A DNA stretch of 64,000 nucleotides from Loxodes magnus (taxonomy: Eukaryota; Ciliophora; Karyorelictea; Loxodida; Loxodidae), in assembly GCA_946699065.1 (NCBI GenBank), contig CAMPDV010000121.1, positions 62,001 to 126,000 on the forward strand, given 5' to 3'. This document shows positions 1-38,701 of this stretch, one piece after another. The stretch's first letter is position 1. Each line of letters begins with the position of its first letter. A program made the translations under genes and the position numbers. The notes under the pieces were generated by a model. It saw only the letters and a program-made list of their open reading frames with translations, ran no database searches and was not told the origin of the DNA.

Positions 1-3000
1 TCATTCAATTTATTTCAAAAGGTTTACTTCAGGTTGCTGTCACAGTTAAAAATGGTAGGTACTATATTTGTTTTCTTAAGTTAAATCATAGAGTTATTCT
101 TCTTACTACTTTTCTTGCTTCTTTTGGTTAAACATTTTCTTTATCTTTCTTATTACTTTATTAGACTCTTAATCCTATTTTGCTTTATCCTTTTCTCACT
201 TTTCTTGGATTTCTGATAAATTTATGCTTCCTTTAATACAGTTTAATATGAAATATCATTTCAGGGACTTGAAATAAACTTCTCTACCATATAGAAGAAT
301 TAGTTGGTATAGTCAGTTTAAGACAAAAATACCATTAGCAATAATCAGTAAGAATAAAGTTAAAAAATCTATGAAAACATAACGTTAGCCAGATTCAAAG
401 TAGCTTCCAAATCAAAGAGTTAGAATAGAAATAAGTAGATAGGTATATTCTAGAGTATTAAGCTCTTTACTTACAAAAGGTTTAAATTTTCTTTAGAGTA
501 AAATGCAAGTAACTAGAATAAAACATAACCATTAGAATTAGAAAAGGATGGTAGTTTTCTAAAGGAATATGAAAACTAAGGAAATTCCAAACTTTTCATA
601 AATCTTTACAAACTCTCAATAGAAATAAGCTTCTTTGTATCCCATTATTAGGAATCCAAATTAAGATTTTATAGTGTAAGATTTTATTATCTTTCCATTT
701 TTTCATAGATACATTAATACAACAAAAGGAATAAGAAACCCATAAAAAAGAATACCAGGCAAAGCAAAAGTAAGAGCAAATCGAAGATGCTTTCCCTTTC
801 AACATTATATTTCAGTATAAGAATTTAAAACCTATAAGTTATCAGAAATACTGTAGCAACTAAATGCACTTAAAATACTTTGAATGACATTCTAGTAAAT
901 TTAAAAGTATGAAACACTCATAACTGTTATAAAGACTGACTTATTAAACTTTTTTTTGCTTATTATTGCTCATAAGCATTACATCATGAATGCAAAAATT
1001 AAAATACCAAAAAGAAAGAACAAATTAAGTTCCACTAAAGTGTAATATTTCCTTTCTCCTTTTTAAAAGAGGCAATCAAATTTAAAAATATTAGAAGTTA
1101 CCTGGTTATAGCCTTAGTTAAATTAAAACAATCAATTTAATGCGTCTGGCCAATCAAAGTTAAAGTTCTGAATTAAAACTAAAAACTACATATAATTGGT
1201 TAGTATTTTAAAACAAATCCCATGGTATGAGTCTTTCTTTTTTTGCTTGTCTTTGAGTTGATATTATTAAGAAAGCCAAAAAAACTATAAAAATAATAAT
1301 AGTAATTGTCGCTATTATGACCGAATCTGTTTAACTAATGCATGCTTAGCATCTTTTTTTACTATTTTTAGTTCAATCCTTTAAACAGACATCACACAAA
1401 GGTCCTTCATGTCCTTATTAACAACTGCCTTAAGTCTAAATTCCTTTTAGTAATTAGTTTTTTTTTATATAATTTGTAGTAGCTAAATATTTTTGCATAA
1501 ATCCATTAAGCAAGCTTCTTAATTCGGACACTTATGAACTATTTCAGCTTAAAATTTTCTCTTCAATAGCCACTTTTAGGTGTAATAAGATCACTTCCTC
1601 AACAATGAGCTCCTTCCATACAATCCTTACAGTTTGTATCGCTTTTGTTTAAGGAATATTTTCCATAAAGACAGTTTTGGCATTATGTATTGTAAAAGAG
1701 CATTTAACCTTGGAGACAATCGTAAACTTAAACTGAATAGTTGTAGTAATTAGTTATGTTATTATCTGAAGGTAAATAATCTTTATTGAATGTATCTGTT
1801 TCTAGTAAGAACTATACTTGGTATTTCTATTTTGGATTTACTTTTATAGTTATTCCTTAATAGTAATAAACTCCCATCTTAGCAAATATAGTTACTTATC
1901 CTGTTAAATCAGCTTCATCTGAATGAATATAGCTATATGATTTATTGTTAGTTCTAACTATTTATCCAAACATATCTTCTATATTATACCCAAAATCCTC
2001 TAATGGAAATCCTGGCAATGCTTACAGTTTTTAAGTTTCTAAAGCTCTTTATTGGTTTTAGTTATTTTAATGAAAGACTAATTAGTAAGGAAAAGCAGAT
2101 ATATCATTTCCATAGCAAGCTGAGTTATTTATATAGAACTAATTAAAATTTATACTTTTGATATCTGGAGTGAAAATAGGTAAAGTACCTGAAAATGAAA
2201 TAGCTCCTCCTTCGCTTTTAAAGCCTAATACAGTATTATTAATAAATATATTTTTAGCTATCTAAATGTCACATTTTTATCTCCTATCACATGTAAGCCT
2301 CAAAGCTCCTCCTTTAGTAATTTGATCTTTTTATTGCAATACACTGTTATCTTCAAATCTATTCTCATAAAATAGTAGATTAGCATTTTAAGTAAATCCA
2401 ACTCCTCCTTAAATAAATGCCTAGTTGCTTTAGAAAACACAGTTACTTATAAAGTACCAAAATGAAACAATGTCATTTTATATTAATAAGCAAGAACCTT
2501 ATTTAGATTATTGATATCTGCACCTACAATTAGTCATGTTCATCTAAGAGTTTTGAGAGTAGATTGCTGATCCTTAGTCATTATCACTATATCCAAACAT
2601 GAATTCTACTTTATCTATATTAAGTTTACTGTTATTAACTAATGATATAGAAGTATTATAAAACTACTCAAACACGCTTTTACTCATAATCATGCTAGAA
2701 TTTTTTAGGTAAATAACAGCTCCATGCTTATTACTAAAACTCTAATAGAAATAACAATTTTAAACTGTAAAATTAGAATACTCAGAGTATACTAATCCTC
2801 CATAAGAAGTTACGAATACTTATCTACTTTATAAATTATCCATATTTATCTGGGAGTTAGAACATTATATAAATGTGCCTTATACAGCACTAACATTAGA
2901 AACCTCTATATTCTAAAACAAAACTTAAGAGTCTCTAATTAAGAAAATTCCTTAGTCTTCAGCAACTGAAGAGTCAATTGATAGATTAGATAGTATAAGC

Positions 3001-5754
3001 TACACTTACCAAAAATACCCAATACTTCCTTATAAAGCATAATTTTAATAGAAATTGGAATTTTCTATTCTATTCTATTCCTCCTAGTTGTCCTAGTAAA
3101 ACAAAACTCCTCCTTAGTTTTAAGCTAAGTTAAACTTATAACTGTTCATAGAAGCATTCTATATTTAAGAGCTTTATAAGTATGCAAAACCACCAAACAT
3201 TTTGGCTTTATTTTTAAAGACTCTTGACTATTTGATTGATCCTACTTATGAGTTTCTTAATAATAAAGCTCTTCCGCTATTTGCAATATTTTCTTAAAAT
3301 AAGCATCTTTCTATGAGGGTTATAAAGGAGCCTTATAAATAAGAAAATCCACCAGAATCTGATGCCATATTTTTATTAATTCAAGTTTGTTCAATCAAGT
3401 TTAACCTAGAAATTATTAAATATAAGGCTCCTCCATTTATGGCGCTATTTTAATCAAAAAAGCATTGAGATATTTTAGTTATTGTAGAACTTATTGAATA
3501 TAAAAATCCTCCAGAGTTCTAAGCTTTATTTCTTAAGATTTAAGACAGATAAATTTCTTCAATTAAGGAGTATTCTAAATTGAATACTCCACCTATATTA
3601 GCCTAATTTCCATCGAAGATACAATCCTTTATTTATAAAATTTCAGAACCTTGCAAATTAATAAACCCAGCTTACTTATCTGCTTAATTCTAAAAAACTG
3701 AAGAGTAAAGCAGTTAATATATTTTAGAATACCTTAAGGATATAGCGCCACCTATGAATTTAGAGGTATTTTCTTCAAAATAGCAATTCGTTATTTAAGA
3801 AATTCTTGAACCCTATAAGAATAAAAATCAACCATGCCATTCTGCATGATTTTTGAGAATGTAACAAAATTTTAGACTTTACATAATAGAAAATTCTAGA
3901 TATAGAACTCCTCCTTCGTTTGCACTATTTAAGGAAAACGAGCAATTTAAAATTTATTCTATTATTGCATCTGAGAAATAAGAAAAACCTCCATATCATT
4001 GAGCTTTATTTTTAATAGCTTAAGAAAATTCCATTCTTCATAAATTCGATGACAATAACACAAAGCTTCCTCCTATAAACTCAGACTAATTTTCTTCAAA
4101 CTAGCAACTTAAAATTGTAAATACTTAAGATTACTACATATAAGCAAAGCCACCATATCTAGAAGCTCTATTTTTAACTATAACTGAAAATTCAATCACT
4201 TCTATTATTGAGTCAACGAGAGTTAAAACTCCTCCAGCAAACGACTTATTTTCTTCAAATGAGCAGTTTACTATTAAGGTAATATTTGATTTGGTTAAAT
4301 ATAAAAATCCTCCAAAATATTTAGCTTAATTTTCAATTATTTTAGAGAATATTATTATATCAATACTTGAGTATTCTAACCTAAAAGATCCTCCATAATT
4401 TGCTTTGTTATCTTTAAAAATGCAGTTGCTTATTTAAGAAATTTTTGAATCATATAGCATTGAAAATCCAGCAGAAGATTTTGCATAATTTAAGCTTATT
4501 TAGCAAAATGATAGATCATTAATACTTGATTCTAATAAAAATAGCGAACCTCCTTCAATGGAAGTATTATTGCTAAATAAAGAATTTTTTATTTCCCTAA
4601 TATTAGACTATTTTAAAAACAAAGCTCCTCCTGAGTTTGTTGCTAGATTTTCTTCAAAGATACTTGATTTTAATGTTTCTAATTCTGAATTTACTAAAAA
4701 TATTGAACTTCCATTAAAGGCTTGATTTCTCTTAAAATCACATGTTTCAATTCATAAATAAGAGTTTTCTACATAAATAGCTCCAGCTAGTAATTCTCCT
4801 ATATTTTCTTTGAATTAACTTTATAATATTCTTAGTTCTGAATTTAAGCTTTGAATTACTCCTTTCTCTAATACATAGTTTCCTTATATTAAAGAATTTT
4901 CTATTATCAAATTAGATTCTTAGCACTTCAGAATGCTTTCTTTGGCTATGTTTGATTAAATTAATGTATGAAAGATCTAAATTGATCCACTTAGACTCTC
5001 TATTATATTTCTTGCATTGTATTTTAAGTTCTTAGAACTAAAAGTAATCTTTTTGTCATTCGCAGATTGCATTTCCCTTTATAGATATAATTCACTATTT
5101 TATATTTATGTTTCTTTCATTCTTAGATAACTGCTCTTAAGGTAAATTAGAGTTGTGTAACTAATATCCATATTCCTTATTTAAACTTTATCGTACTAAA
5201 CTTTTGAATTCTTTACTGATAAAAAATAATTTTTTAGCTGCTTATTTTCATCTTTATCTTCTTCTTATTGTCTCTAAAAGATTTTCTTCCTCACTAATCT
5301 TGAGATTTAGGAATATCAAGGTCTCATCACTTAACTCTAATCTTATCTTAGATGTTTAAATTTTCATTTCTGAAACATTTTAACGATTCAAACACATTTC
5401 CAAATGACTTGGTTCTTCTGAACACTATTAAAAGGTTTAAATAGTAATGTTTTTTGCAGCTTTTCAAGAAATCCCTCCTCTCATAATTTCGCACTAATCT
5501 GAACAAGTTAGACAATTCACACAACCAAGTATATGTTAGTGTGGGGATAATCATATTTAGTGTGAAAAGCCTTCTTCCAATTAAAATACTGTTTAAGATA
5601 ATTAAGTAAACGGAAATTATTTGGTTCCCAAACTTTTGCTAAGTCCTAAAGCTTTAGGTGCTGTTACATAAATTTTTTTTCCTTTAGCTACTACAGAAAT
5701 AAATATAATTAATGCTATAGAAGTGAAGATAGCTATTTATGTCCTTTTCTCCAT
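1..5754 (-). CDS. Giant beta-helix surface membrane protein, gene 1 (partial, C-terminal tail off the left edge)
   Basis: Read with TAA/TAG=Gln and TGA=Trp, one frame runs from the ATG at 5754 to position 1 (1918 codons). It encodes a signal peptide, a Cys-rich patch (C-x2-C-x2-C type), GG-containing beta-helix repeats, a Cys-rich EGF-like segment (Gly-Tyr-Trp-Arg with Trp as TGA), then eight or nine hydrophobic spans and the start of a cytoplasmic tail. By architecture it should be a cell-surface protein with a large ectodomain; its function is unknown. The first half (5754 to about 3194) and upstream DNA match gene 3. From 3194 to 1 it matches gene 2 almost base for base. Compared with its siblings it has a 9-nt in-frame deletion near codon 35 and a 15-nt in-frame deletion near 1508. 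The start is the same ATG as in gene 3, directly before a hydrophobic leader. Confidence 0.85.
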
Positions 5755-7672
5755 TTAAGCTAAAGTTAATAATACAAATTTCTCTCTCTTATATTCAAAA
5801 GAACGGCGGGAGCAAGATTTTTTATTTTAGACTTAGCCATCTAAATCTTAGAAAGGTTAAAATTAGATAAAAGATCTCAAGTAAATGAAAATGGATGAAT
5901 ATTCGAACGAGCAAGGACTTTAATTTTAAGATAAGAAAATATGTATTCATTACTTATGGTAATCTCTGTTCGAAGAAATTGATCTACAAAATATCTACTA
6001 TATTTCATTAGATACAGTTAAGAGTGAGTAACAGGATAATTGTACCAAAGTAGCCGATTTTAAAAATTTTAATAGTTATATCATATTTACAACTGGATAA
6101 GAATTAACTAGATCATATAAATTTAAATTCTCATCTACATAAAAGAATTATCTAAAAACTGATTTTATGAATGGGTTTCTTTTAATTAAATTAAATTATG
6201 TTTTTACTAAAATCTATCTACAATAAAAGTTTTTTAAAATACGTATATTTAGTAAAGCCTGGATTCTATTATAGATATATTTTTTTAAAATATTTAAGTT
6301 CTAATAAAATGAATGGAGTATAACTTAGCATTTATATATTGCTTAAGTTAAAGTTATCAATAATTATATTTAGACATAGTCAAACTTATTAAATCAGCTA
6401 CTAAACATTATTTTGTAGTGGAATATTCATTCTAGTAATATTTCTTTTTCAATCTTCTATAGTTTAAAAGTTGGGGTTTTTTGGAATTTACATTGGCTAC
6501 TCTTATAATTAATTTAAGAACAGAATAGAGGTTAATTTAATAGAGGCTTATAAAGGGATTAAATCATTTATTTGTTAGATTAACAAAATTTTTTAATGCT
6601 AATGTTTATAATCAAGTTGTTTGAAATGGATTTTGTTTACCTGGTTTCTATATTTTATAAGTAACTGCAAAAGAATAAGTTGAGATAGGAGAATACTGAA
6701 GATAAAGCTGTAGATAATATATTTATTCAGATCTTAAATTAAATAACTGAAATTATTTTAGCTTTGAAGCTTGGATTCTTATGAAGCCATAGTATGGCCT
6801 AGTTAGAAACATAATTGTATTTATTGTTTCTTTTTGTATATAAAATAACTTAGGTTATTTATCGATTATAAATGCATTCAAAAGAGCATTTATGCTCAAA
6901 ATGTGTCGTTAATCCTAAGAACTTTAAAGAAAACTTAAGTTTGTAATATCTTTTGAAACTATTGCTTTTAGTTCATTCGGAAGAAAATTATCTTAATTTT
7001 AATAATTTTTAGTAATGATCAAATGAGTCTCTTCAATAGATCCTTCAGAAATTTAATAATTTAGTTAAGATTATAATCACTCTTCGATTATTAACTGTAG
7101 ATATAATTATCTAAAAAAGGAAATTTTACTTTAGTTAAATAAATCATAAAAGGACTAATATTGTCTTTAATTTTAGTTCTTTCTTTGATTTTTTACTCAC
7201 AGCTAATTTAATAAATTAGTTGTCTTATAAATTAATAGTTTATAGTATGCTCACTCATTTATAATTTACCATAAGGCTTATAAAGCTAAAATCAACACTT
7301 TTATATTTTCCCGCCATTTAATGTAGAAAACTAATTTATCTATTTTATATTTTAAGCAAGATATATCGGCAAAGGATTAAAAGAACTGTCTTTATCTTAT
7401 TTCTAAATCACACTAAATTTTAATTCTAGGTTTAAAATTAATATTTCAGAAATAATTATCAGATCCTTGATTTAATATTACCTTCAAATTATAGAGATAT
7501 AAAGATAGGTGAAAGTAAGCTAGTTGTATGATATAAGTATTTAAATATTTGTACCTAGTTGATTATATTAATTAATAGTTATATTTATTCTTGGTAGTTA
7601 CTAAGGTATATCTAACCATTATTTAATCTTAAACCTAATTAAAAGTAATCTAATTTATACTTAGAGACTAAT
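5755..7672. repeat. Upstream arm of an inverted segmental duplication (pairs with 46134-48049)
   Basis: This is AT-rich DNA upstream of gene 1. It is nearly identical, in opposite orientation, to the DNA upstream of gene 3, with scattered single-base differences. Similarity stops abruptly at about 7672: the last shared bases are ctaatttatacttagaga, after which the two copies differ. I see no convincing gene in it. It contains two GC-rich motifs (5804-5811 and 7306-7315) that stand out from the AT-rich surroundings. It probably holds the promoter of gene 1. Confidence 0.85.
5801..5816 (-). promoter_or_regulatory. GC-rich motif about 50 bp upstream of the gene 1 ATG
   Basis: On the minus strand the motif reads cttgctcccgccgttc, and it is conserved in front of gene 3. 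GC-rich words are rare in this AT-rich spacer. A second motif with the core ggcggga lies 1.5 kb further upstream. The core resembles E2F/DP sites of other eukaryotes, but a regulatory role is only inferred. Confidence 0.25.
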
Positions 7673-18002: not shown

Positions 18003-21000
18003 ATGCGAGCAAACTTGATCTTAGCTATCTTTTTATTTCTAATAGCATGCTTTAGAACTGAATAATCTCAAGTGTATGTTACGTCTCCTGAAGTGTTTAA
18101 AAGCCTTGGATTGAGTAAATCTCTAGGAACTTAGGAATTTCCATATATTTCTATTTCTTAAGCTATTTTTGAATTAGAAGAAGATATTGACTATCTGATG
18201 CTTATATCTCCTCATATGCACTTAGTCAGTTGCATAAGTTGTGACAATTGTCCAGATAATTGTGAAATTTTACGAGGAGGAAATCCTAGGAAAGGTCGAA
18301 AAAACTTAACAATACAAACTTTTCCTAATTGCTCAGAAAGCTATCAATATTTAGAAATGTGCTTAAGCCACTAGAATACAGGTGAAATGGTGTTCATCTC
18401 GTCAAGTCTAAAAATAGTGCTATAGAACGATTTTCTAAAGCTTAGCAGTTTGGGTATAAACGGCTTGGAATTTTCTCCAGGACAGCTAATATAATTAAAC
18501 ATTACTGACTTTAGTCTAAAGCCATTCTTTTTATCAGCAAAGATCTCCCAAATAATTTTTGACAGCATATACATTAAAAATTTGAACGGAAACTATAAGA
18601 CATTAATTTACTTAGAAAACAGTAAATTTAATATAAGAAAAACATAAATTAAGATAAACGAAAATTATATGAGATGAATAGAGGAAAGCGCTAATAGTAC
18701 GGAGATTTAAGATTACTTTAGCAAACAAAATCCAAATATTACTAATATAATTGAGAGTATAAATGGGCAAGTCTTCATTGATGACTTGTTAGTTTAAAAG
18801 AATTTAATAAAAGAAAGCATAATAAGTTGTAAGGCGTCAGAGCTAGTAGTTAGTAATTCAATCTTTAAAGAAAATTTAATGGTATAAAGAGGCTTAATAT
18901 GAAGCATAGAGTCAATAAATCAAATCATATCTTGTTCTTTCATAAATAATATAGGAGGAGAACTAGCCGGAGCTATATATATTGAAACTTCAGTTTTAAA
19001 TGTTGAATCAAGTGTTTTTCTGAAGAATAAAGCTTTAAATGGAAGTTCTATTTATTCAAAAGATTCAATTATAGAAAACCTAAAAAATACTGCGTTTGAA
19101 GAAAACTAGGCAGCTGAGTAAGGAGGAGCAATTATTTTGCAAAGTTCTTCAGCTATAAAAATAGAGAATAGTACATTTATCAATAATAAAGGAGATAATG
19201 GAGGAGCATTAGCTTTAATTGATTCTAAAATTGTTGAGATAATATCTTCAAAAATTATCAGAAATGAAGCAAAATTAAGTGGAGGATTCTCATATTTAGA
19301 AAATTCAAATATCTCAATAATAGAAGACTGTTTATTTGAAGAAAATAAGGCAGACGAAGGAGGAGTTTTAAACTTAATTGTTTCTAATATAGGAGAAATA
19401 ATGCTATCCACAATTATCAAAAATAAAGTAAAGAATTTGGGAGGTTTTATCTCAATGTATGCATCCAATATTAAATATATATTAAACTGTACGTTTGAAG
19501 ATAATTATGCAAAAGAAAGTGCTGCAGTCTTTATTTTATCTAGTTCTTGGATTGATATATTAGCATTTTCGCAAATTACTAGAAATCATGCAGTTCAATA
19601 TGGAGCATTCTTGTATTTAATAGATTCAATTTTTTCATAAATGATAAGCTGCTCTTTTGAGGAGAATATTGCAGATAGTGGAGGAGTCTAAATTATAGAA
19701 TTCTCTTAAATTGATTAAATAATTTTATCGAAAATAACTAGAAACAAAGTATTGAAAAATGGAGCATTTTTGTTTTTGTTAAGTTCAAATATTTCATATA
19801 TAGCCAATTGCTTATTTGAAGAAAACCATTCAAAAGGTATTGGAGGTGTTTTTGCCTTATTTTATTCATCTATTGATACATTTGAATCTAATAAACTTAT
19901 TAAAAACTAAGCCTCTAACGATGGAGGATTTTCTTTCTTATAATATTCAAGTCTTTCTTTAATTATAAATTGCTTTTTCCAAGATAATAATGCGTTATAA
20001 GGAGGAGCATTAGAATTAAGATATTCATATATAGATCAAATTATATCTTCTCAAATCATAAGAAACCATGCATAAGAACAAGGTGGATTTGCTTATATTC
20101 TTAATTCATCTGTTTATTCCATAGCAAATTGTGCTTTTCTAGAAAATTCTGCATTAAATGGAGGAGCTTTTTATCTAAGATTTGCAATTATAAATTATTT
20201 ATCTTCATCTCAAGTACTTTAAAACAAAGCTAGAGAATCAGGAGGGTTTTTATATATAAAACTCTCCTAAATATTTTAAATAGAAAACTGTAATATGACT
20301 GAAAATAATGCTGATTAAGGAGGAGTAGTTTATTTAGAATACTCAAGCATTTAATTTATAAAATCTACTTAAATTATTAATAATAATGCTTTTAATCTCG
20401 GAGGTATTTTTTATTTAAAAAACTCTATGATTTTTTAAATCAGTCACTGTGAACTAGAAGAAAATAAAGCTATTTTAGGAGGTTCTTTATATTTATAAAA
20501 ATCAAATCTTTATATTGTAGAATTCGTTCGCATTGCTAAGAATCAGGCAATATAATAAGGTGGCTTCTCGTACTTAAAAGATTCAAATATTTCATTAATT
20601 GCAAATTGTTTAATTGAGAGAAATCTAGCATAATAAGGCGGAACTTTCTGATTAAAAAATTCTATTATAAGCACTGTGATACTTTCGTAAGTTACTTAAA
20701 ATAAAGTAACAGCAGAAGGTGGTTTTGCATACTTATAAAGCTCTTAAATATAGAATGCTTCTATGAACAGTTATAAGTTTAACTTAGCTTAAAACTAAGG
20801 AGGAGTTTTGTTTTACTAGGACAACTAGGAGGAATAGAATAGAATAGAAAATTCCAATTTCTATTAAAATTATGCTTTATAAGGAAGTATTGGGTATTTT
20901 TGCTAAGTGTAGCTTATACTATCTAATCTATCAATTGACTCTTCAGTTGCTGAAGACTAAGGAATTTTCTTAATTAGAGACTCTTAAGTTTTGTTTTAGA

Positions 21001-24000
21001 ATATAGAGGTTTCTAATGTTAGTGCTGTATAAGGCACATTTATATAATGTTCTAACTCCCAGATAAATATGGATAATTTATAAAGTAGATAAGTATTCGT
21101 AACTTCTTATGGAGGATTAGTATACTCTGAGTATTCTAATTTTACAGTTTAAAATTGTTATTTCTATTAGAGTTTTAGTAATAAGCATGGAGCTGTTATT
21201 TACCTAAAAAATTCTAGCATGATTATGAGTAAAAGCGTGTTTGAGTAGTTTTATAATACTTCTATATCATTAGTTAATAACAGTAAACTTAATATAGATA
21301 AAGTAGAATTCATGTTTGGATATAGTGATAATGACTAAGGATCAGCAATCTACTCTCAAAACTCTTAGATGAACATGACTAATTGTAGGTGCAGATATCA
21401 ATAATCTAAATAAGGTTCTTGCTTATTAATATAAAATGACATTGTTTCATTTTGGTACTTTATAAGTAACTGTGTTTTCTAAAGCAACTAGGCATTTATT
21501 TAAGGAGGAGTTGGATTTACTTAAAATGCTAATCTACTATTTTATGAGAATAGATTTGAAGATAACAGTGTATTGCAATAAAAAGATCAAATTACTAAAG
21601 GAGGAGCTTTGAGGCTTACATGTGATAGGAGATAAAAATGTGACATTTAGATAGCTAAAAATATATTTATTAATAATACTGTATTAGGCTTTAAAAGCGA
21701 AGGAGGAGCTATTTCATTTTCAGGTACTTTACCTATTTTCACTCCAGATATCAAAAGTATAAATTTTAATTAGTTCTATATAAATAACTCAGCTTGCTAT
21801 GGAAATGATATATCTGCTTTTCCTTACTAATTAGTCTTTCATTAAAATAACTAAAACCAATAAAGAGCTTTAGAAACTTAAAAACTGTAAGCATTGCCAG
21901 GATTTCCATTAGAGGATTTTGGGTATAATATAGAAGATATGTTTGGATAAATAGTTAGAACTAACAATAAATCATATAGCTATATTCATTCAGATGAAGC
22001 TGATTTAACAGGATAAGTAACTATATTTGCTAAGATGGGAGTTTATTACTATTAAGGAATAACTATAAAAGTAAATCCAAAATAGAAATACCAAGTATAG
22101 TTCTTACTAGAAACAGATACATTCAATAAAGATTATTTACCTTCAGATAATAACATAACTAATTACTACAACTATTCAGTTTAAGTTTACGATTGTCTCC
22201 AAGGTTAAATGCTCTTTTACAATACATAATGCCAAAACTGTCTTTATGGAAAATATTCCTTAAAGAAAAGCGATACAAACTGTAAGGATTGTATGGAAGG
22301 AGCTCATTGTTGAGGAAGTGATCTTATTACACCTAAAAGTGGCTATTGAAGAGAAAATTTTTAAGCTGAAATGGTTCATAAGTGTCCGAATTAAGAAGCT
22401 TGCTTGGGAGTTCCTATATCTAATGGATTTATGCAAAAATATTTAGCTACTACAAATTATTTAAAAAGAAACTAATTACTAAAAGGAATTTAGGTTTAAG
22501 GCAGTTGTTAATAAGGACATGAAGGACCTTTGTGTGATGTCTGTAGAAAGGATTGAACTAAGAATAGTAAAAAAAGATGCTAAGCATGCATTAGTTAAAC
22601 AGATTCGGCCATAATAGCGACAATTACTATTATTATTTTTATAGTTTTTTTGGCTTTCTTAATAATATCAACTCAAAGACAAGCAAAAAAGAAAGACTCA
22701 TACCATGGGATTTGTTTTAAAATACTAACCAATTATATGTAGTTTTTAGTTTTAATTCAGAACTTTAACTTTGATTGGCCAGACGCATTAAATGGATTGT
22801 TTTAATTTAACTAAGGCTATAACCAGGTAACTTCTAATATTTTTAAATTTGATTGCCTCTTTTAAAAAGGAGAAAGGAAATATTACACTTTAGTGGAACT
22901 TAATTTGTTCTTTCTTTTTGGTATTTTAATTTTTGCATTCATGATGTAATGCTTATGAGCAATAGTAAGCAAAAAAAAGTTTAATAAGTCAGTCTTTATA
23001 ACAGTTATGAGTGTTTCATACTTTTAAATTTACTAGAATGTCATTTAAAGTATTTTAAGTGCATTTAGTTGCTACAGTATTTCTGATGACTTATAGGTTT
23101 TAAATTCTTATACTGAAATATAATGTTGAAAGGGAAAGCATCTTCGATTTGCTCTTACTTTTGCTTTGCCTGGTATTCTTTTTTATGGGTTTCTTATTCC
23201 TTTTGTTGTATTAATGTATCTATGAAAAAATGGAAAGATAATAAAATCTTACACTATAAAATCTTAATTTGGATTCCTAATAATGGGATACAAAGAAGCT
23301 TATTTCTATTGAGAGTTTGTAAAGATTTATGAAAAGTTTGGAATTTCCTTAGTTTTCATATTCCTTTAGAAAACTACCATCCTTTTCTAATTCTAATGCT
23401 TATGTTTTATTCTAGTTACTTGCATTTTACTCTAAAGAAAATTTAAACCTTTTGTAAGTAAAGAGCTTAATACTCTAGAATATACCTATCTACTTATTTC
23501 TATTCTAACTCTTTAATTTGGAAGCTACTTTGAATCTGGCTAACGTTATGTTTTCATAGATTTTTTAGCTTTATTCTTACTGATTATTGCTAATGGTATT
23601 TTTGTCTTAAACTGACTATACCAACTAATTCTTCTATATGGTAGAGAAGTTTATTTCAAGTCCCTGAAATGATATTTCATATTAAACTGTATTAAAGGAA
23701 GCATAAATTTATCAGAAATCCAAGAAAAGTGAGAAAAGGATAAAGCAAAATAGGATTAAGAGTCTAATAAAGTAATAAGAAAGATAAAGAAAATGTTTAA
23801 CCAAAAGAAGCAAGAAAAGTAGTAAGAAGAATAACTCTATGATTTAACTTAAGAAAACAAATATAGTACCTACCATTTTTAACTGTGACAGCAACCTGAA
23901 GTAAACCTTTTGAAATAAATTGAATGATATCTATTGCTTAACACTAATTTACTGCAACTTTATAATTAGATTGCATCAAATTAGACGCTTACCAAGAAAG

Positions 24001-24485
24001 AGTACTGGAAAAATAGAATAACATAGTTTATGTAGAAATACCAAGAATTTGAAAATTATCAAAATACTTCTAGAGTCCTTAAAAAATCATTCAATGACAT
24101 CAACTAAAATTCTAGAAATTGCCAGTAAAAAGGAAACCAAAAGTAGGAAAATGAAAGCGAATAACTAAATGATAATCATTTACTAAAGATATAATCAAAT
24201 AAACTTCCAGATCTACGTATATAGCGAAAACTAAAAAGTATAAAAATAGTCTAAGATAATTAGGCAAATAGCTTAGATTATTCTCTTTTGAATTTATTAG
24301 ACTTACAAAATCTTAGCTAAATTAATATTTCTCAATAAAATAGCAATCTTTAGAAGCTAGAAGATTAATCTAACAATTCATTTTAAAAATGAAGTGTTCA
24401 ATCCAGAGACTAGAACTATGATTTCCTTTAAAGCATTAACGAGGAAAAGAGCTTTGATGTAAAAGATGAAAAGGATTTAAAATGA
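18003..24485 (+). CDS. Giant beta-helix surface membrane protein, gene 2 (apparently complete)
   Basis: With TAA/TAG=Gln and TGA=Trp, one uninterrupted frame of 2161 codons runs from the ATG at 18003 to a plausible terminal TGA at 24483-24485. In order it shows: a signal peptide (residues 1-20), a Cys patch C77-x2-C80-x2-C83-x3-C87, about 1000 residues of beta-helix rungs (roughly 250-1230), a Cys-rich EGF-like segment (about 1396-1525, with the motif GHEGPLCDVC), eight or nine membrane spans (about 1540-1890) and a polar cytoplasmic tail of about 270 residues. The membrane module has a Tyr-Trp-Glu motif (GYKEAYFYWEFVKIYEKFG) like the polytopic, TRP-like C-termini of many protist surface proteins. 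It is likely an adhesin, receptor or surface antigen; no enzymatic motif was seen. The second half is shared with gene 1 and a core with gene 3. The stop is inferred from the change to AT-rich, non-coding-like sequence. Confidence 0.88.
20718..22405 (+). repeat. 1.69 kb shared core, gene 2 copy
   Basis: Same length as the gene 3 core (50617-52304). The left edge lies at ggtggttttgcatac. In gene 2 the match to gene 1 continues past the right edge to the end of the gene 1 sequence available here, while gene 3 diverges. Confidence 0.9.
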
Positions 24486-25739
24486 AGAATGAAGCTTAGT
24501 TTATAAATGAAAACTAAAACATTTAAAATTAAAATTTGATATAAGTAAATGGTTTATATGGATATAATAAAAAGGAATAAATAAATAATGATTATAGAAT
24601 ATCATTATATTTGATAATTAATTTAATAGTTATTTATTTAATTAGTATAAAGTGTTTAAGTAAAAGTTCTTTTAAATTAGTTGGTTCTTAATGAGGTAAA
24701 GCTTGTATAAAACTAGTTGGATAATAAATTTATTTTGGTAATAAACTAATTAGTTTGAATTTAATAGATATTTTTAAATAGCTTAATATTAATTGATTAT
24801 ACTCTTAAATGTATTAATTAAATAAACTAAGCATCTTAATTAACTTGTATATCTCTTAATTTTAAAAAATAGATTACTTAGAGTACTAAAATTAAGTAGA
24901 CTACTTAATTTCTCTGTGTTAAGCATTTAGTTTATATTTTGGTACTCTTTTCTTTTAACTGTGTAAGGTAAACTATGATTAGCATTAGTGATTCTTAAGA
25001 AGACAATTACTATTATTTATACTAAACTAGAACAAGAGTATTAAACATATTTATTACATATCTCAAATTTAACCTCTTATTAGTTATTTTATCGCTTATA
25101 ATTTGGGTGGAGTTAGAATAAGTACTTTCATCAAATTAGATGATCTTATTAATTATTAATTGTGATTGAATAGCTTAATTTATTTATTATATTAGCTTAC
25201 CACTCTTTAAAAGGGATTATAAGATACTTGATAAATCTTTAATTCTTTTAAAAGATGATGCGAAGCAAATGATAAGCTAATCTAGAGGTAGCTTGGTTAT
25301 AATACTAAACTGGTAGAGTATGATATCAGTTAAAATGATAATATTTAATATTTGGACTTAAAATAATTGGTTAAGTAGGATAAACTTGATAGCATTGGTT
25401 CTGAAAGATGATTTGATAGTTAATAATTCTTAATTCTAATAATTTGTAGATTAAAATCTTTAAGCTATCTTATATTATTCTTCATAAATTTACTTCTAAC
25501 CTAAATTAAATAATAGAATGTATTAATAATAATCTGATGGCTAAAGTTAATAAATTGGCTAATAGACTGCTAGAATATTAATGCTAATTATATTTGAATG
25601 AAATTAATAATATCTAATAAATAGCTTGATGTCTTTAATCAATTTAATAATATACTTATATTTATCTTTATTTTCCTATTTTCACTAAATATTCTACTTC
25701 CTTTTAAATCCACCATACATTTCCTCAATGTAAGGCTAG
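24486..25739. other. AT-rich spacer
   Basis: Low-complexity sequence between gene 2 and IP3R-like copy C. I recognise no gene, repeat or RNA in it. Confidence 0.5.
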
Positions 25740-27640
25740 TCTCAAATACCTTAGATATTTCTATTTTTTCTCATTTTTACTATTTCCTGCTTATAAATTA
25801 TGAGTACCTAGAGATGCTTAAACAAATGCAAAGTCATTTATAAGAAGTAACTTAAGTAGATAATTGCCTATGGAAGCTACTTTTTAGAATAGACTTAATT
25901 GAAGGAAAATAAAGGAAGCTAAACTAACTATAAAAAAGAGCTGACAAAAATATAACTAATACTTATAGCCATTATAGAACAAAACTAAGTCTATTTGCAG
26001 TCAGGATTAGCTAATTCCAACTAAGAATTATTACCATTTAAACATATTGCCAAACTTAATTATCCAAGATTCTCGAACGACCAAAGTTTATTCAAAAGCT
26101 ATTTTTCGTTTCTAGAAAGAAGGAGAGATTCTTTAAAAAGAGGAGAGCGTGATTATTACTATATTCGCTTAAATAAAACTAGCTGTCAGATGAGTATTAA
26201 TGTTTGCTAGTAATTCCTGGTAGCTAAAGTCTAATTAGATGAAATCCTGTAACTTAAAAGGAAATTTAGATATAAACCAAATGATAAATAAAAAATAGAC
26301 TTAATTTTACTATTAAGAAGAAAATTTCAATATCCCTATAAATTAGTGACGTACTATGAAATTAATTCTCAGATGTCGCTAGCTCTTGATTATTAATCGC
26401 TTAGAACAAGAATAAATAACCATGAAGTACTGCTATTAGGAAGAATAACAAGAAGAGTTTAAATTTTCCTAATTATAAGCTCAAGTCTTATCCTCTAAGA
26501 TGATAATAAGTCATTAAAGTCAAAAAAGATTTTGCATAGGCAAATAACGAACTATTTTGTAAAATAGACTATAAAATGAATAGAACTTGATGTATTGAAT
26601 CAATTTTTATTTTTAAAGGTTAAATGATAAACTTAAAAGAAAACTTCAGATTTTGCTATATATCGAATGAAAAATCTTAGCTGGAAATTAACAATAAAAT
26701 TGAGAGGAATTTAGGCATAGTCTTAAGCAATGCTAGACATTAAAAGAAGAAATATAGATTTAAAAGCTTTTAAGAAGAGATTAAAGCATTTGCGAAACTT
26801 TTTCCTATTAAAAAAGAGCAAGAAATGCTTATTATTAGCAGAAGTAAATTGACAAGTTTTAACATTAAGAAGAGTTTCCCATGCCAAACATAAAAAATAG
26901 CAGAAAGAAATCTATGGCAGTCAATTATAAAAGAATATACAGAACCTAGAATAGTATAAGAAACTAATAAAGATGCTCTAAAAATTAAAAAAGTTTAGAA
27001 ATGCGTTTTCTGGGAAATCTTTAATGATAAAACGTTTTCCAGTCTTGAGTAATACATTCAATCCATTAGATAAAGAATTTGCAATGAAATGCATAAAATA
27101 TTAAGAAACTTATGAATCTAGTAGTGCAATATTAAGATCTACTTGATATCTTGGAAGCATTCGATTAATAGTTAGATGAATATATTTGAATTAGAGACTA
27201 AAAGTTTCTTAAAGAGCAATTAACTGAAATCCTCTGAAAATCTTGAATAAATCCTTTGCAATAGTTATAAACTTTTCGACTCAAAAGAAATTTATGAGAT
27301 AAGAGATATAAATTCTAGCTAATTAAAATAATTAAAAAAGACTTTCAATCTTAGCTTAAAAGTTGAGAGACTCAACAACTACAAAAACGAAGCAATCCTT
27401 AATAAAATTAAAGATAAGCTTGAATTAATTTTAAAATAGAGTAAATAATAGCAAATAATTATTTGATAAAAGTAATTTTCTAGCATAAAGAAGGAAGCAG
27501 CTTACATTCTTTAAATACTTCTATATTTCCAGAATATTAATGAACAACTTTTACATAAAACAGAAGAAGAAGAGAAATAATAAATTAAAATACTCTTATA
27601 ATGAGAAAGATATTTAAGTATATATTAAAATCACTTACTT
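25740..27640 (+). pseudogene. IP3 receptor-like copy C: decayed N-terminal and RIH region
   Basis: Pieces in different frames align in order with IP3R-like copy A. The fragment RFQKEGEILQKEESVIITIF (about 26.1 kb) matches RFQQEGIGYIQDGDTVIITT in the N-terminal ligand-binding region of A. KKLMNLVVQYQDLLDILEAF (about 27.1 kb) matches KKSMNLVMHFLELLEDFC in its RIH domain. The copy stops near 27.64 kb, far short of the channel region. Several frame changes and the weak match to A indicate an old, non-functional or strongly diverged copy. IP3 receptors release Ca2+ from internal stores; this copy lacks any pore. It sits directly downstream of gene 2, as copy A lies downstream of gene 4. Confidence 0.6.
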
Positions 27641-28860
27641 ATAATTATAGAGTTGCTTGCTAGTTCTATAGAAAGATTTAGCATAATAGAAGCTATTTGA
27701 ATAAATTTAAAAATTTAGTTATTTAAAATTATTTCACTAACGTAAAGTAAGCGCTAAATATACTTAGAGTAAAGCTTTAATTAAATTAATTTATCTAATA
27801 CTCTATTTATAAAGATACTTATTTTTAAGTCTAAATTTATATATAAATAGCTTTGATTTATTATTTAATTACCTTTAGTTCTAAATAATAAATTCATATT
27901 AAATCCAAGCTTAGTTTACTTTGTAAATTTCTCATTGAATCACTCTCATAACAAGATTATCATAATAATAAGATGTAATTTGAATAAGCTTATATAATTT
28001 AGAAAAGGTGATAAAGCAATACTAAAAGTTATATACAGTAGCTTAATAAAAGATCCAATTAACTTCTAAAAAGTAAAAAAAGCAAGCAAGGAAACTTTAG
28101 AAATTCCAATAATTTAGTGTGTTAAATGAATATAAGCTATATATATTTTTATTTTATTTGACATATAAAATTATTACAGTTCAACCATATGCCTCGATAT
28201 TCTTTTCTATTATCTATTTCTTCTTCTTAATATATTGATTTAGGGACTTGTATATTAATGCTAAAAGCTAGGAAATATGAAAGTGTAAATAGCTATTGAT
28301 ATATATTCTGTTACTTAATCTTAATTAACAAAAGATTTATTAATATAATTGAAAGATAATAGAAGTTTATTAAGATATTTGATATGTTGCTTAAGCAAAA
28401 TAATAGGGTTATTAACATGCTATGTATAAATTTTAGATTTTACAGGTTATTAAATATTAAAATCTTTAAAGAAATTAATTATTTATTTCACTCAATTAAG
28501 TAATTCCTTTATGTTTATTAATATAATAAATAAAGCAAAATTATTTTAAAATTAAAAAGGGGAGCTATAGTAGTTTGGAACTAAATAGATAGAAAATAAT
28601 TAAATAGAGTTTAAATATAAAGCAATTAATAAATATTTCTATGGTTATTAAATTATATCATCTAAATATTTATTTTTCATAATTAAATAAATTAAATTAT
28701 TGAATTAAATAAACATAAAGAAGCATAATTTATTACTAGTTATATGATATTTATACTTTAATTAATTCTTTTTATTACCTAGATGTAAATTTAGTTTATA
28801 ATTTAAGAATTGGTTAGCCTTTCAAAGACTTTAAATTAACTATTTTTATAAGTATTTTAA
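27641..28860. other. AT-rich spacer
   Basis: Nothing recognised: low-complexity A/T with no family resemblance to the rest of the window. Confidence 0.5.
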
Positions 28861-29540
28861 TTAAATACTTAGAATAAAGTTGCTTATCTATAATGACGCT
28901 TTCTTTTTTACTCATTTTATCGATTTTTTAATATTTTCCTTTTTCGGGCTTTTTATCAATATCATTTTAAAAGAATTCAAGTTTTTACTTTTAAAATCGA
29001 AAGTTTTTAAACATCTAAAGTCTAATTTGTTAAATACTCTTATTCTTAACTATCTAGATTTCCTAATTCTTGCTTAATTTAATATTGTCTAAATGAAAGA
29101 AAACAAATTACATTGCTAGTTAATGGAATATCAAAATTATTTATTTGATCGAACTAAAAATTTCCTATTTCTTCCTTTATCTTACCTTTTTGAATTTTAT
29201 AACTCTTTCTTATTAATTTTATGTTATTGTTAATTATCTTATTGCAATTTTTCAAACTATTTTGCTGAATTATATCTACATCTTAAATTTTATTGGCTCA
29301 TATTCTTCATTTCCAACTTCTTTATTTATTTTAGGAAAATAATTGTTCTATTAAAATAATTTTAAAAATAGAAGTATTCTAGTTTCAGTATTTTCTCTAA
29401 GAAACTTAAAAATTTAAAGTTATTTATTTAAATGCTTCCTTTTTGTTAGCATTTAATAAGAGGATTCATTCTATTTATCTTAAGAGCTTTATTTCATCTT
29501 ATAACCAGAGTTAATAAGCTTTGTACTATGCTTATCTTAT
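28861..29540 (+). pseudogene. Coding-like fragment of an unidentified multi-pass membrane protein
   Basis: From about 28.87 kb one frame gives hydrophobic helices separated by Lys-rich loops (for example IFSFFGLFINIILKEFKFLL and LIFFISNFFIYFRKIIVLL) over roughly 220 residues. Predicted spans with positive flanks are more regular than expected of AT-rich spacer. No start, stop or homologue could be fixed. It could be a remnant of a membrane-protein gene like the one at 12.2-17.9 kb, or chance, since every frame is open in this code. Confidence 0.3.
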
Positions 29541-29562
29541 AATTATAATAATTATAAGATAA
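29532..29562. repeat. Perfect 31-nt palindrome (15-bp arms around a central A)
   Basis: The arms are ttatcttataattat and its exact reverse complement. It is followed 24 bases later by a second hairpin with 12-bp arms and one mismatch (29586-29597 with 29609-29620). The pair could form a cruciform or structured RNA; no known RNA family was recognised. Confidence 0.6.
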
Positions 29563-29620
29563 AAAAGTTTCAATAATTTGAGTGTTGGAACATAACTGCA
29601 CTACTCATAGTTATATTCCA

Positions 29621-31740
29621 TGCTAATTATGTTAAGTACAAGAGTTTATGTAAGTTTATTATCAATCTCTAGTTAATTCTTCCTTCTATATTAGTTCTAA
29701 ATTTTGTTCTTTCATTTTTCTTTCTTTTTATTTAAATTTTATTAATTTAGCATAATAATTGCTTAAGTTTCTTTCTTAAATTATATTTATTACTTTTCTT
29801 AAGTTTTGGCTTCTTAAATTATATAGTTCTAATTGTTTATTCTTAATCTTTAGTTAAATAGTGCTGCCTTTAAACTCTAAAATTATCCCTTACGATAAAT
29901 TAAAAAAATAAAGAATAGATAAAAAGGGTAAAAGAGCAGAGTAATTTTAATAGCGTATAATTAGAATTGAATAGTAGAAGTAAGGTAAATAGAGTATTAA
30001 TTGATTTTAGATATTTAATAGAATTAATTAATGCTTAAACCTTAGGAATCAGATTATTAGGAACAAATAAACTTAATTGTATAATATTTACTTAATCTTA
30101 ATTAGATAAGCATATAATAGTATTGCATATATTAGTTTAAGTTATCCTTATAATATAAAAAAGATACAGATGTATTCAAAATTGCTATTCAGTTGTAACA
30201 TCCCTTATTATATAAAATGAAGCAAGGCTTATATAATATAAATAAAGAAGCCTTATATAATTATTCAGGCTTTGCAAGAAGTATTAATAAGTAATATCTG
30301 ATTAAAGGAATAGCTTTATCATATTATAAAAGTAACTTGAAGTACAGCTTTATAAGGTTTTTGATATATATAAATTTGTATGCAGCATACAAGTTAAATT
30401 AGATATATGACTAATAAAAATGAAGAGTGGTTTAAATAATTCTTTTAACTAATTAATCTGGATTCTATTGATAAAAGTAAATAAAATAAGTGAGTTATGC
30501 AGTATTGAAGTCTTAATTATTAAAAGTAATAATTTCTTAATAAGTTAGTTTTATAGAAGTGCTATAAACTATAAATATAAATTATAATAAATAGAATTTA
30601 TACATTGAATCTAAACTAATTTTTATTAAGTTACAAACAGATATTAGTTTCCCAGCTTTTAATTAATATAGATTAAGCCTTGCTAGTTATTGCCTGAAAC
30701 CTTTAAAAGATCAACTTAAAAAATGTATAATTAATAAAAAGTTGAAATATTTAATCTTAAATTGGTTCTAATTTGATAGACTTAGAATAAAAATTATACT
30801 AAGTGACTTAATCTTAAGTCTAAGAGTATTTAAATTTGAAAATATTAAGATAAATGCAAAAGTTCAAATAAAACAGAAGTTGCTTCATTTTCTTTCATTT
30901 AATTTTTCTCTAATTGGATAAGTTTCAGATAGAGTATAAAAGTTTTATATTTAAAAAAGTTATCCCATTTACTTAGATTTTAAACTATTTGACTGAATAA
31001 CAAGATCCTTTACAACATAATTAATGAAGCCTACCATTCTGCTAATTTAGAAGCAATTAATTGATATAAATAAAGTTAAAAGCTTCAATCATATAGTTGT
31101 GATTCATGTAGCTTCATAAGTAAGCAATATGAATTAGAAATTGCTTAATAATCCTACTATTTCTATTACTTTGCTTGGAGTAGAGCTTATAACTTTCTGT
31201 TTATAACAGCTTGATCATATTAAAGCTACTAAGATAGGTTTTAGTTCCCAGACATATCAGATATAAATCCCTTTTACAGAAAGAGACTAAAGTATCAAGA
31301 TAGTAAAATATAATAGATATAGCCTTATGTAATAAAATAGATATCTATTCATTAATGCCTCTTAATTACTTAATACAATAACTTTAAGAATTAATTAATT
31401 TTATCCTTTATAATATAAGACTAAGTTCTGGGAGTAAGAGCAGACTAGTTATTTATCAATAAGTATTATTATAATTAAAAGACTTTACTATTTATTAGTA
31501 AATCATTTAAGTACTTCCTTTAGTGCTTTTCTTGTTTAATTATATTTAATTAAGTTATAAAGAAAGCTAAATCTGATACTTTAATCCTTATTTTTTAATA
31601 ATATAGACAGTTATGCAAATCTTATTAAAAGGATATAGAGTTAGATAGCCTATTAACTTATACTTGTAAATTTTAATATAAGCAAATGATTTAAAGGACT
31701 TAACTAAATAAATTTAATTATCACATATATTATTAAAAGT
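29621..31740. other. AT-rich spacer upstream of gene 4
   Basis: No gene recognised. A 17-nt palindrome lies at 30376-30392 (ttgtatgc-a-gcatacaa). The promoter of gene 4 must lie here, but it shares no obvious motif with the upstream regions of genes 1 and 3. Confidence 0.5.
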
Positions 31741-37700: not shown

Positions 37701-38110
37701 AAATCGGAATAGTAATTTAATTTAGCCATAAGAAGATAGCATCTTTTAAATATAAGAACAACAAGCAATTAAAAAGTAGTAAAAAGAAAGCTAAAATATC
37801 AAAATTAAAAAGAAACTAAAGAAACTATAAATTAAATAACTAAAAAGCAAATATGATAATACTTCTTCTATAATCCACTATAAATAATATCATACTCTAG
37901 ATTAACAAAGCATTTCATTTTATAAAAAAGAAGAGGGTAATTATTTTTAAAATTTAGAATATTAAGTTAATCCTTTGTAGAGAAAATTAAGCCTCAGATC
38001 CAAAGAGTAGAAAATTCAACTAAATCAAACTAATTTTCATCAAAAAAACAGCATTTCAATGGATAATCAAAAAAGTGAAGATAAAAATATTTAAGTAGAC
38101 TAAACATATA
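31741..38110 (+). CDS. Giant beta-helix surface membrane protein, gene 4 (most divergent member)
   Basis: The ATG at 31741 starts a signal peptide (MPKPLMLIAFILLIFKYSAV) followed by the family Cys patch (CIQCQNCPDNC). One continuous frame then covers the beta-helix rungs, the Cys-rich segment (Gly-Tyr-Trp-Arg, Cys-Asp-Val-Cys), the membrane module and the tail motif Ile-Glu-Trp at about 37504-37512, with no net frame change over 1920 codons. It diverges from genes 1-3 along its whole length, so it did not take part in the recent exchanges. It uses TGG where gene 2 uses TGA in Asp-Trp-Thr, and TGA where gene 2 has TGG in Asp-Trp-Pro, which fixes TGA as Trp. The end is uncertain: after about 37589 the frame has no TGA until 38788, so the real end may involve an intron or lie elsewhere. 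I place it where the Lys/Gln-rich tail fades. Confidence 0.85.
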
Positions 38111-38701
38111 ATTATCATTAATAATAATATCTTATTTATATATTTTAACCTGTATAAAGTCATTTAACTATATAATCATAAACATTATAAATTTATAATA
38201 TCTATTTTAATGTACTCAACTTAATAAGGAACAACTTTTTCAGATACAAGTATTATTAATTTAATTGCAACTATATTTAATAAAGGAGCATATGTCTTAG
38301 AGCCACTAAATTTAAATGGTAATTAATAAATACTTTTAAATAAAGCTTAAATAGTTGCAAGATATTATGTTACATATTTGAGTTTTATAAGGAACTTATA
38401 AATTTAAATATATTTTAACTGATTTCTTTCTAAGTTATAACTAAATATTTTAATTATTTTAATGTAAAGAGAAATGTATCATAAAGTAAATAAGCACTAT
38501 GCTTATCTTAAACCTTTTCTTTTTAATATTATATCTAATTATATATTTCTTTATTTTTCCTTTCTATTCTGATTCTTATTATGTAGTTGTCATTTTTTAT
38601 TAACATTAAGTTAAATCAAATAAAAGAATGCAAAAGGTAACTCAGGAAACTAAACTTTTTGTATAAACAAACTTTAAAATAGATGAATAACAAATTTGTT
38701 A
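38111..38701. other. AT-rich spacer between gene 4 and IP3R-like copy A
   Basis: No clear gene. The gene 4 frame stays free of TGA through here, and an ATG at 38683 in that frame is followed by a plausible Gln/Lys-rich peptide. Whether it belongs to either neighbour is unresolved. Confidence 0.35.

Follow-up and report, generated by a model that had tools for sequence, protein, structure and literature searches.

A circularly permuted, inverted duplication linking three paralogous genes for predicted membrane proteins in Loxodes magnus

VSG and var are parasite antigen families in which mosaics are formed by gene conversion, and in Campbell-type integration a circle is inserted through a single crossover between homologous sequences. 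Segmental duplications formed through circular intermediates have been described in human, with a precedent in cattle cited alongside; in those cases no homology is present where the circle was opened and inserted, and the authors state that homologous recombination is thereby ruled out (PMC7450558). In a study of human duplication mediated by eccDNA, donor and recipient were distinguished in 1/3 cases in the section concerned (PMC7188851). Loxodes magnus is described as lacking extensive genome editing (PMC11441545). No paper linking circular DNA, a chimeric gene, integration and a paralog was found in the literature search, and the search for circular DNA with segmental duplication in ciliates returned nothing relevant by title or start of abstract. 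The locus described here lies in a stretch of 64,000 nucleotides (the window) of contig CAMPDV010000121.1 (C121), and its features are collected in Table 1.

Table 1. Segments of the three genes and of the duplicated block (window positions)
Feature	Position	Strand	Content
L1 of gene 1, probable donor arm	3195-7668	-	1.9 kb upstream, N-terminal block (ATG at 5754), most repeats; homology to right arm begins at 7668 (= 46136)
S of gene 1	1507-3194	-	last repeats and start of Cys-rich part
R2 of gene 1	1-1506	-	remaining Cys-rich part, hydrophobic segments, tail; block continues left of window
L2 of gene 2	18669-20717	+	repeat-rich 5' part of presumed recipient; start approximate, may lie further upstream
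S, left copy (gene 2)	20718-22405	+	left end of inserted block; L2/S join on C121, C1793 and C7777
R2 of gene 2	22406-24058	+	in frame from S; frame open to at least 24000
D, downstream block, probably copied from gene 1 locus	24059-46135	+	97.3-98.9% inverted matches to left arm out to -22316
Gene 4	about 33679-37519		same family, within D
D/L1 fusion join	46136		derived; breaks off IP3-receptor-like gene; 1-bp microhomology (G)
L1 of gene 3	46136-50616	+	upstream region and repeats, probably donor-derived; one -1 indel near 48768
S, right copy (gene 3)	50617-52304	+	right end of inserted block
R1 of gene 3	52305-54800	+	3' part of presumed recipient gene, in frame with S; end approximate

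Shared tract and permuted block order

By sequence alignment, gene 1 reads L1-S-R2, gene 2 L2-S-R2 and gene 3 L1-S-R1, where S is a 1,688-bp tract common to the three genes at which the segments join. The initial annotation had matched the 5' part of gene 1 to gene 3 and its 3' part to gene 2, with the switch inside a common tract, and these observations hold: 1507-7668 (-) aligns with 46136-52305 at 98.87% identity over 6,174 columns, 1-3194 (-) aligns with 20718-23927 at 98.88% over 3,211 columns, and the S tracts of genes 2 and 3 are 99.6% identical (7 differences in 1,688). Matches so long and so close far exceed chance. The 3' match to gene 2 carries on past the gene as the start of a duplicated block, which reaches some 22 kb to the left of window position 1 and ends at -22316, a point equivalent to 46136. 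Overall, the copies diverge by about 1%. L2 and L1, like R1 and R2, form homologous pairs that are in phase at the joins; 52580-53441 (R1) and 22681-23542 (R2) are 74% identical, and the R1 and R2 proteins 57%.

Relative to the gene 1 locus, the right arm (20718-52304) is circularly permuted. The left arm has the order L1-S-R2-D and the right arm L2/S-R2-D-L1-S/R1, with S at both ends of the permuted block S-R2-D-L1-S. Starting at 3194 and going outwards as far as -22316, the left arm is matched by 20718-27867, 27856-38812, 38804-39911 and 45720-46136; 46136-52305 then matches 7668-1507, and the two ends of the left arm both correspond to 46136. A portion of D absent from the left arm of C121 is found in that of contig C1793. 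In D2 the two left arms diverge by 0.47%, and the right arm differs from them by 1.00% and 1.20%. Furthermore, an insert of about 5.8 kb, flanked by a 9-bp repeat, is common to the left arms and absent from the right arm; its copy on C1793 has one mismatch in the repeat at one end. The Pfam scan of this insert gave no match in 9 frame pieces (of the 12 from its two halves), and the Rfam search at gathering scores gave 0 matches in the window.

Gene 1 is not a chimera of one contig, since the L1-S-R2 join is present on C121 and again on C1793. L2-S-R2 is likewise carried by C1793 and C7777, but these diverge into other DNA at 28158. C121 is the only contig on which the 46136 join was seen, and the same holds for the far right arm and for gene 3.

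Genetic code, reading frames and predicted products

The bacterial/standard code was dropped, there being no stop-to-stop frame of 250 aa, and a code with TAA/TAG=Q and TGA=W was adopted because in-frame TGA codons sit inside continuous repeats; L2 of gene 2, present on all three contigs, reads continuously in it. A single frame preserved over 1918 codons had been proposed for gene 1. That frame contains 190 standard stop codons which this code can read as sense, so its openness says little, and it was not borne out: the phases are 0 for the N-terminal block, 2 for the repeat/S block (5315-1602) and 0, 1 and 0 for three R2 markers in succession, the family frame departing from the proposed one in the middle of the gene and fitting it at the ends only. 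Compared with the other copies, gene 1 carries four frame-shifting indels, namely +1 near 5269, -1 near 1554, +1 near 1244 and a 16-bp loss at 1506/1507 (alignment columns converted by hand to window coordinates), and its phases are explicable without any intron. The script used for the gene models permitted introns of 16-27 bp; 1-bp indels are the probable cause of the one intron in its gene 3 model and of the different starts that it gave genes 1 and 3, which would thus be artefacts.

The genes are predicted to encode membrane proteins whose repeat region is of the beta-helix type; these would probably be located at the cell surface. Chlam_PMP (PF02415) scored above its curated cut-off in P0001 (L2; 3.8e-10), in the gene 2 stretch (2e-06) and in P0004 (gene 4; 0.00023), and was not found in P0002, P0003 or the gene 3 stretch 50431-54800. 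A sequence search of the PDB with gene 2 returned 4 matches (best E 0.17), none meaningful, and literature on PMP proteins in ciliates yielded nothing relevant by title or start of abstract.

Polarity of the 46136 join and origin of the hybrids

The join at 46136 is derived relative to the channel gene at the end of D, whose upstream part D also holds. In the left arms of both C121 and C1793 the end of D reads ...GACATG/AAAAGC, while the right arm at 46136 reads ...GACAT/GTCTCTAAG, with one base shared at the fusion. Past this point the flank of the left arm encodes an IP3R/RyR-type pore (6uqk, 2.3e-44), and a paralogue, L035, is colinear with the left arm through D's end (89% over 1,883 columns, with 72 of 417 sites differing ahead of the junction and 129 of 1,462 beyond it). 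Since the channel gene runs on past D's end beside the left arm and in the paralogue, the join is the new arrangement, the likely source being gene 1 and the likely hybrids genes 2 and 3. At D's end, to which this evidence applies, the probable donor arm keeps the ancestral order. The channel gene in the left arm of C121 is itself damaged, 5.8 kb present in C1793 being missing there. The opposite polarity, with an ancestral right arm and a left arm made by reinsertion of an excised circle, was rejected because the match of L035 to the left flank runs across the junction.

That paralogues recombined within a tract common to them, and that hybrid genes were formed, had been proposed at the outset and is well supported; the choice of gene 1 as the hybrid is probably reversed, as the channel gene indicates. 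Moreover, a local crossover or conversion tract is too small a picture, the permuted block measuring about 30 kb. We consider it rather probable (roughly 0.6) that a block of this size, copied from the gene 1 locus, was circularised and that the circle entered a sister gene through homologous recombination in S, yielding genes 2 and 3. The copied locus would have comprised 1.9 kb upstream, L1, S and then about 24 kb made up of R2 and the DNA downstream of it, for a total of about 30 kb, and the two ends of the copy would have been joined into a circle with 1 bp of microhomology. Inverted integration by homologous recombination within S of the paralogous gene L2...R1, about 17.5 kb away, would leave S at either end of the insert and split the recipient into two hybrids, gene 2 receiving the recipient's 5' part and the donor's 3' part, and gene 3 the donor's upstream region and 5' part with the recipient's 3' part; the arms would later have been partly homogenised by exchange. 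We infer a physical circle, a crossover in S and a former single gene comprising L2 and R1.

Both end copies of S are S-like along their full length, so the recipient's own S would have been nearly identical or replaced. S of gene 1 differs from each of five other copies by 3-9 substitutions per 1,687 sites. At S position 186 the two right-arm copies of C121 have in common a base absent from the other four copies; at four sites towards the 3' end, genes 1 and 2 go together and are set apart from gene 3 and the copies of C1793 and C7777, so that later exchange must be assumed. A clean empty recipient was not found. A paralogous block considered as a candidate, C121:425-437 kb, carries L2-like and R1-downstream-like sequence about 4.5 kb apart, with L2 homology ending at 19811; the prediction that it was the empty recipient failed, no S or R1 being recognisable in the intervening stretch, L036.

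An identical structure would be produced by replication template switching with no free circle, in which the broken recipient invades gene 1 in S, copies to the end of D, jumps at one base of homology to the upstream side of gene 1, copies L1 and S, and returns by homology to R1. The 1-bp microhomology at 46136 fits this course, and for the human duplications end joining and template switching are described as not separable by breakpoint features (PMC7450558). However, the jump must land upstream of the same gene to give a second copy of S, an outcome that is automatic with a circle, and we regard this route as unlikely. A D/L1 join would likewise have arisen if the gene 1 locus had been duplicated in tandem and the S-to-S segment then transferred, inverted, into the sister gene; this needs an extra step, and with no tandem copy within C121:32001-156000 or C1793 it appears improbable. 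That gene 1 is a mosaic formed from genes 3 and 2 by crossover or conversion, as initially annotated, accounts for its 5' part in common with gene 3 and its 3' part in common with gene 2. It seems very improbable, given that the channel gene runs on beside the gene 1 arm past the break of the right arm and that gene 1 is on two contigs and gene 3 was seen on one, and it leaves unexplained that either end of the left arm has its counterpart at 46136. S is short compared with the length of CCS reads, which counts against an artefact of assembly. Such an artefact, in which near-identical blocks were wrongly joined to give gene 3 or the part of the right arm past 28158, is suggested by the joins being on C121 only, by the difference of C1793 and C7777 at 28158 and by an assembly in which heterozygosity was collapsed at a 96% identity threshold (PMC11441545), but it is hardly credible, since the right arm, with indels private to it, forms its own lineage in D2 and the 46136 join coincides with both ends of the left arm.

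Comparison with known systems

As in VSG and var, the family is large and repeat-rich and recombines in shared tracts; unlike them, with their expression sites, switching and host immunity, it belongs to a probably free-living ciliate. It is a doubtful extension that in karyorelict ciliates chimeric membrane-protein genes are repeatedly generated when genomic circles are put back, guided by homology, into sister genes, each event keeping the donor and making two hybrids, with the present insertion apparently still polymorphic. If true, mosaic gene families would have a source distinct from conversion and unequal crossing-over. The locus also illustrates how pairwise identity alone can mistake a parent for a mosaic.

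The locus resembles Campbell-type integration in that a homologous segment stands at either end of the insert (the left and right copies of S in Table 1) and in the circular permutation; the circle here, itself conjectural, would be nuclear genomic DNA and not a phage or plasmid. In the human eccDNA-mediated duplication a copied fragment is similarly circularised, cut elsewhere and reintegrated, with a block order differing between donor and recipient (PMC7188851), whereas here the polarity comes from the neighbouring channel gene and the insertion point lies in homologous sequence. A single locus thereby reveals the donor, the two ends of the insert and which way the fusion join is polarised. 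With the circular-intermediate duplications of PMC7450558, in the cases treated there, the locus has in common a permuted order (there A-B/C-D to B-A/D-C), a single extra copy and microhomology at the fusion join (1-2 bp there, one base here). It differs from them in an insert bounded by 1.7-kb copies of S inside homologous genes, with two hybrids left behind. As the opening lies inside S, within a homologous gene, the locus is regarded as a variant of this type and is not filed as a member of it, and it suggests how two hybrid genes can arise by homology from one insertion, the insertions treated in that paper being without homology (PMC7450558).

Block structure of the two arms

Genes 1, 2 and 3 have in common a 1,688-bp segment (S), to which alternative 5' parts (L1, L2) and 3' parts (R1, R2) are joined, and the three-way match between them was borne out by DNA comparison, the part order being L1-S-R2 in gene 1, L2-S-R2 in gene 2 and L1-S-R1 in gene 3. 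The initial annotation was right in matching the 3' part of gene 1 to gene 2, but the similarity extends past the gene: apart from two large differences, the DNA runs on as an inverted copy far to the left of the window on the same contig, CAMPDV010000121.1 (C121), of which the window covers 62001-126000. About 5.8 kb is found in the left arm only, and another stretch is gone from the left arm of C121 and kept in that of a second contig, C1793. Since, in addition, 46136-52305 matches 7668-1507, the right arm (L2/S-R2-D-L1-S/R1, D being the downstream block) is a circular permutation of the left arm (L1-S-R2-D) in which S occurs twice. The two outer ends of the left arm are each equivalent to 46136, and the duplicated unit, counted once, measures about 29.9 kb. 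L1-S-R2 is present on C121 and C1793, L2-S-R2 on C121, C1793 and C7777, and L1-S-R1 on C121 only among the matches listed (e.g., the best 40 of 499 candidates scored).

Coordinates of the main features (window positions unless a contig is named; negative values lie on C121 left of the window)
Feature	Position	Remark
S, gene 1	1507-3194	minus strand
S, gene 2	20718-22405	
S, gene 3	50617-52304	
Inverted copy	3194 to -22316	of 20718 to 46136
Stretch missing from C121 left arm	39911-45712	right-arm coordinates
R2 of gene 2	22406-24058	
Left-arm insert, about 5.8 kb	C121:41205-47056 (-20795 to -14944); C1793:27107-32932	not in right arm
2-kb repeat	C1793:75773-77735	
L035	C121:422991-427907	paralogue
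L036	C121:430400-435100	candidate empty recipient
IP3-receptor-like gene region	41606-46136; 57535-61792; C121:424-430 kb	several copies

The left-arm insert is edged by a 9-bp repeat, GAATTACAA, which in C1793 carries a single mismatch at one of the ends, and Pfam gave zero matches in the nine frame pieces of it that were scanned. The 2-kb repeat shares about 83% identity with copies found across many contigs, spaced on several of them (C1168, C1692, C924, C487) at roughly 24 kb or multiples, as in very long tandem units.

Polarity of the join and proposed origin

In the right arm the sequence at 46136 is ...GACAT/GTCTCTAAG; on C121 and on C1793 alike, the left arm has ...GACATG/AAAAGC at the end of D and ...TTA/GTCTCTAAG upstream of L1, so that the microhomology is one base, G. 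The paralogue L035 is colinear with the left arm across the end of D (72 differences in 417 sites before the point, 129 in 1,462 after). The left flank codes for a channel pore of the IP3-receptor/ryanodine-receptor type (best match 6uqk, 2.3e-44; Pfam Ion_trans 1.6e-05, its 24.7 bits falling just below the cut-off, 25), and the gene is truncated in the right arm, ahead of the pore. Because L035 follows the left arm through and the right arm cuts the channel gene, the left-arm order at the end of D is old and the 46136 join new, which makes gene 1 the likely donor and not the derived mosaic first proposed. No paralogue was found across the join upstream of L1, and the polarity is read from the end of D. 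The C121 left-arm channel gene is not taken to be intact: it is without 5.8 kb, and its frame changes between blocks. One of the IP3-receptor-like copies is inverted within the window, at 79% identity.

The simplest and most likely history of the locus is that a circle closed at 46136 and entered a sister gene by homologous integration through S. Each flank of S has a homologous counterpart with which it is in phase: directly before S 133 of 240 bases agree, ungapped, and a stretch of 74% identity begins 275 bases past it. Because S is complete at both insert ends, the recipient S would either have been near-identical beforehand or have been overwritten, perhaps through gap repair. The same end product could also come from template switching.

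Some evidence fits circle integration less well. C1793 and C7777 carry L2-S-R2 as in C121 and then diverge at 28158, abruptly and in an A/T-rich tract, into other DNA, 4.5 kb of which gave matches above 84% in the genome on these two contigs only; later deletion or translocation, or separate duplicates, may be involved. Three contigs for a diploid and a far left flank of 94-96% identity suggest that the three are not all simple alleles. An empty recipient was looked for but not found: in L036, homology to L2 stops at 19811, and sequence like that downstream of R1 (from 55807) restarts about 4.5 kb on, with no recognisable S or R1 between; the closeness of the two flanks is weak support at best. 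In L036 an inverted 16453-17057-like stretch directly adjoins 55807-55947-like sequence.

Probable later exchange, reading frames and predicted products

The copies differ by 1.07-1.57% in L1, 0.49-1.08% in R2 and near D, and 0.12-0.53% in S; the published heterozygosity is about 0.6% (PMC11441545). Within columns 1 to 1,384 of S a single site varies among six copies: genes 2 and 3 of C121 have a base in common there that the remaining four do not have. Near the 3' end of S, four sites set genes 1 and 2 together apart from the remaining four copies. Invariant stretches also occur outside S, so its low divergence is not unique. In four copies of R2 and near D, 35 two-against-two sites occur in clusters; 15 of them sort with the contig, 9 with the arm and 11 crosswise, a mixture that exchange between arms and between haplotypes would be expected to leave. 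In the farther part of D the left arms differ by 0.47%, and the right from the left by 1.00% and 1.20%. Five copies of R2 show 32 variable sites (15 at the first codon position, 12 at the second and 5 at the third; 28 nonsynonymous, 4 synonymous), and differences between R2 and R1 peak at the third; the R2 pattern could result from diversifying selection, from relaxed constraint or from AT-biased mutation.

For the karyorelict ciliate Loxodes magnus, a macronuclear assembly of 706 Mb and UGA as W or stop have been reported (PMC11441545). The present assembly has 705,730,643 bases in 7,843 contigs, and base counts give the window 75.5% A+T. Under the standard code the window has no stop-to-stop frame of at least 250 aa; with TAA and TAG read as Q long repeat-protein frames open, and TGA lies in frame within continuous repeats and just past the CMEGAHC stretch of genes 1, 2 and 3. 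The single 1,918-codon frame claimed for gene 1 did not hold: the family frame starts in phase 0, is in phase 2 over the repeats and S, and lies at three markers of R2 in phases 0, 1 and 0. As all 190 standard stop codons inside the 1,918-codon frame can be sense in this code, its openness means little. Relative to other copies (coordinates converted by hand from alignment columns) gene 1 carries one extra base near 5269 and one near 1244, and lacks one base near 1554 and 16 bp at 1506/1507; gene 3 has -1 near 48768, C1793 gene 1 lacks 25 bp in one place and a single base in another, and C1793 gene 2 shows the -1 at the end of S. Gene 2 is open from the repeats to at least 24000. Several of these indels, in A/T runs, could be sequence errors, which is less likely for the 16-bp and 25-bp losses.

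PF02415 chlamydial PMP-type repeats were found in gene 2 and in gene 4, of the same family inside D; the proteins of genes 1, 2 and 3 share a Cys-rich stretch, and the 3' part of genes 2 and 3 has at least five hydrophobic segments. The gene 3 model (a 593-residue stretch, three sequences; mean pLDDT 61.6, pTM 0.67) shows short strands stacked as a ladder over roughly its first 400 residues, past which it is unreliable; because its top PDB match is pertactin (E 6.0e-04, TM 0.25), the predicted fold can be placed in the beta-helix class and no finer. The family is large, since a protein search of the genome gave 75 matches from the best 74 of 1,650 candidates scored. The products would be membrane proteins, probably of the cell surface.

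Comparison with known circle-mediated duplications

The signature reported for circle-mediated duplications in human, with a precedent in cattle, combines a permuted block order and microhomology at the fusion join (PMC7450558; PMC7188851). Among the open-licence papers listed, no description was found of a circle entering a sister gene and leaving two hybrid genes. The Loxodes locus resembles the human duplications in its permuted block order and in the microhomology at the fusion join, and it is described here as a variant of circle-mediated duplication because its insertion point is homologous, unlike those of the cases described in PMC7450558, which are without homology.
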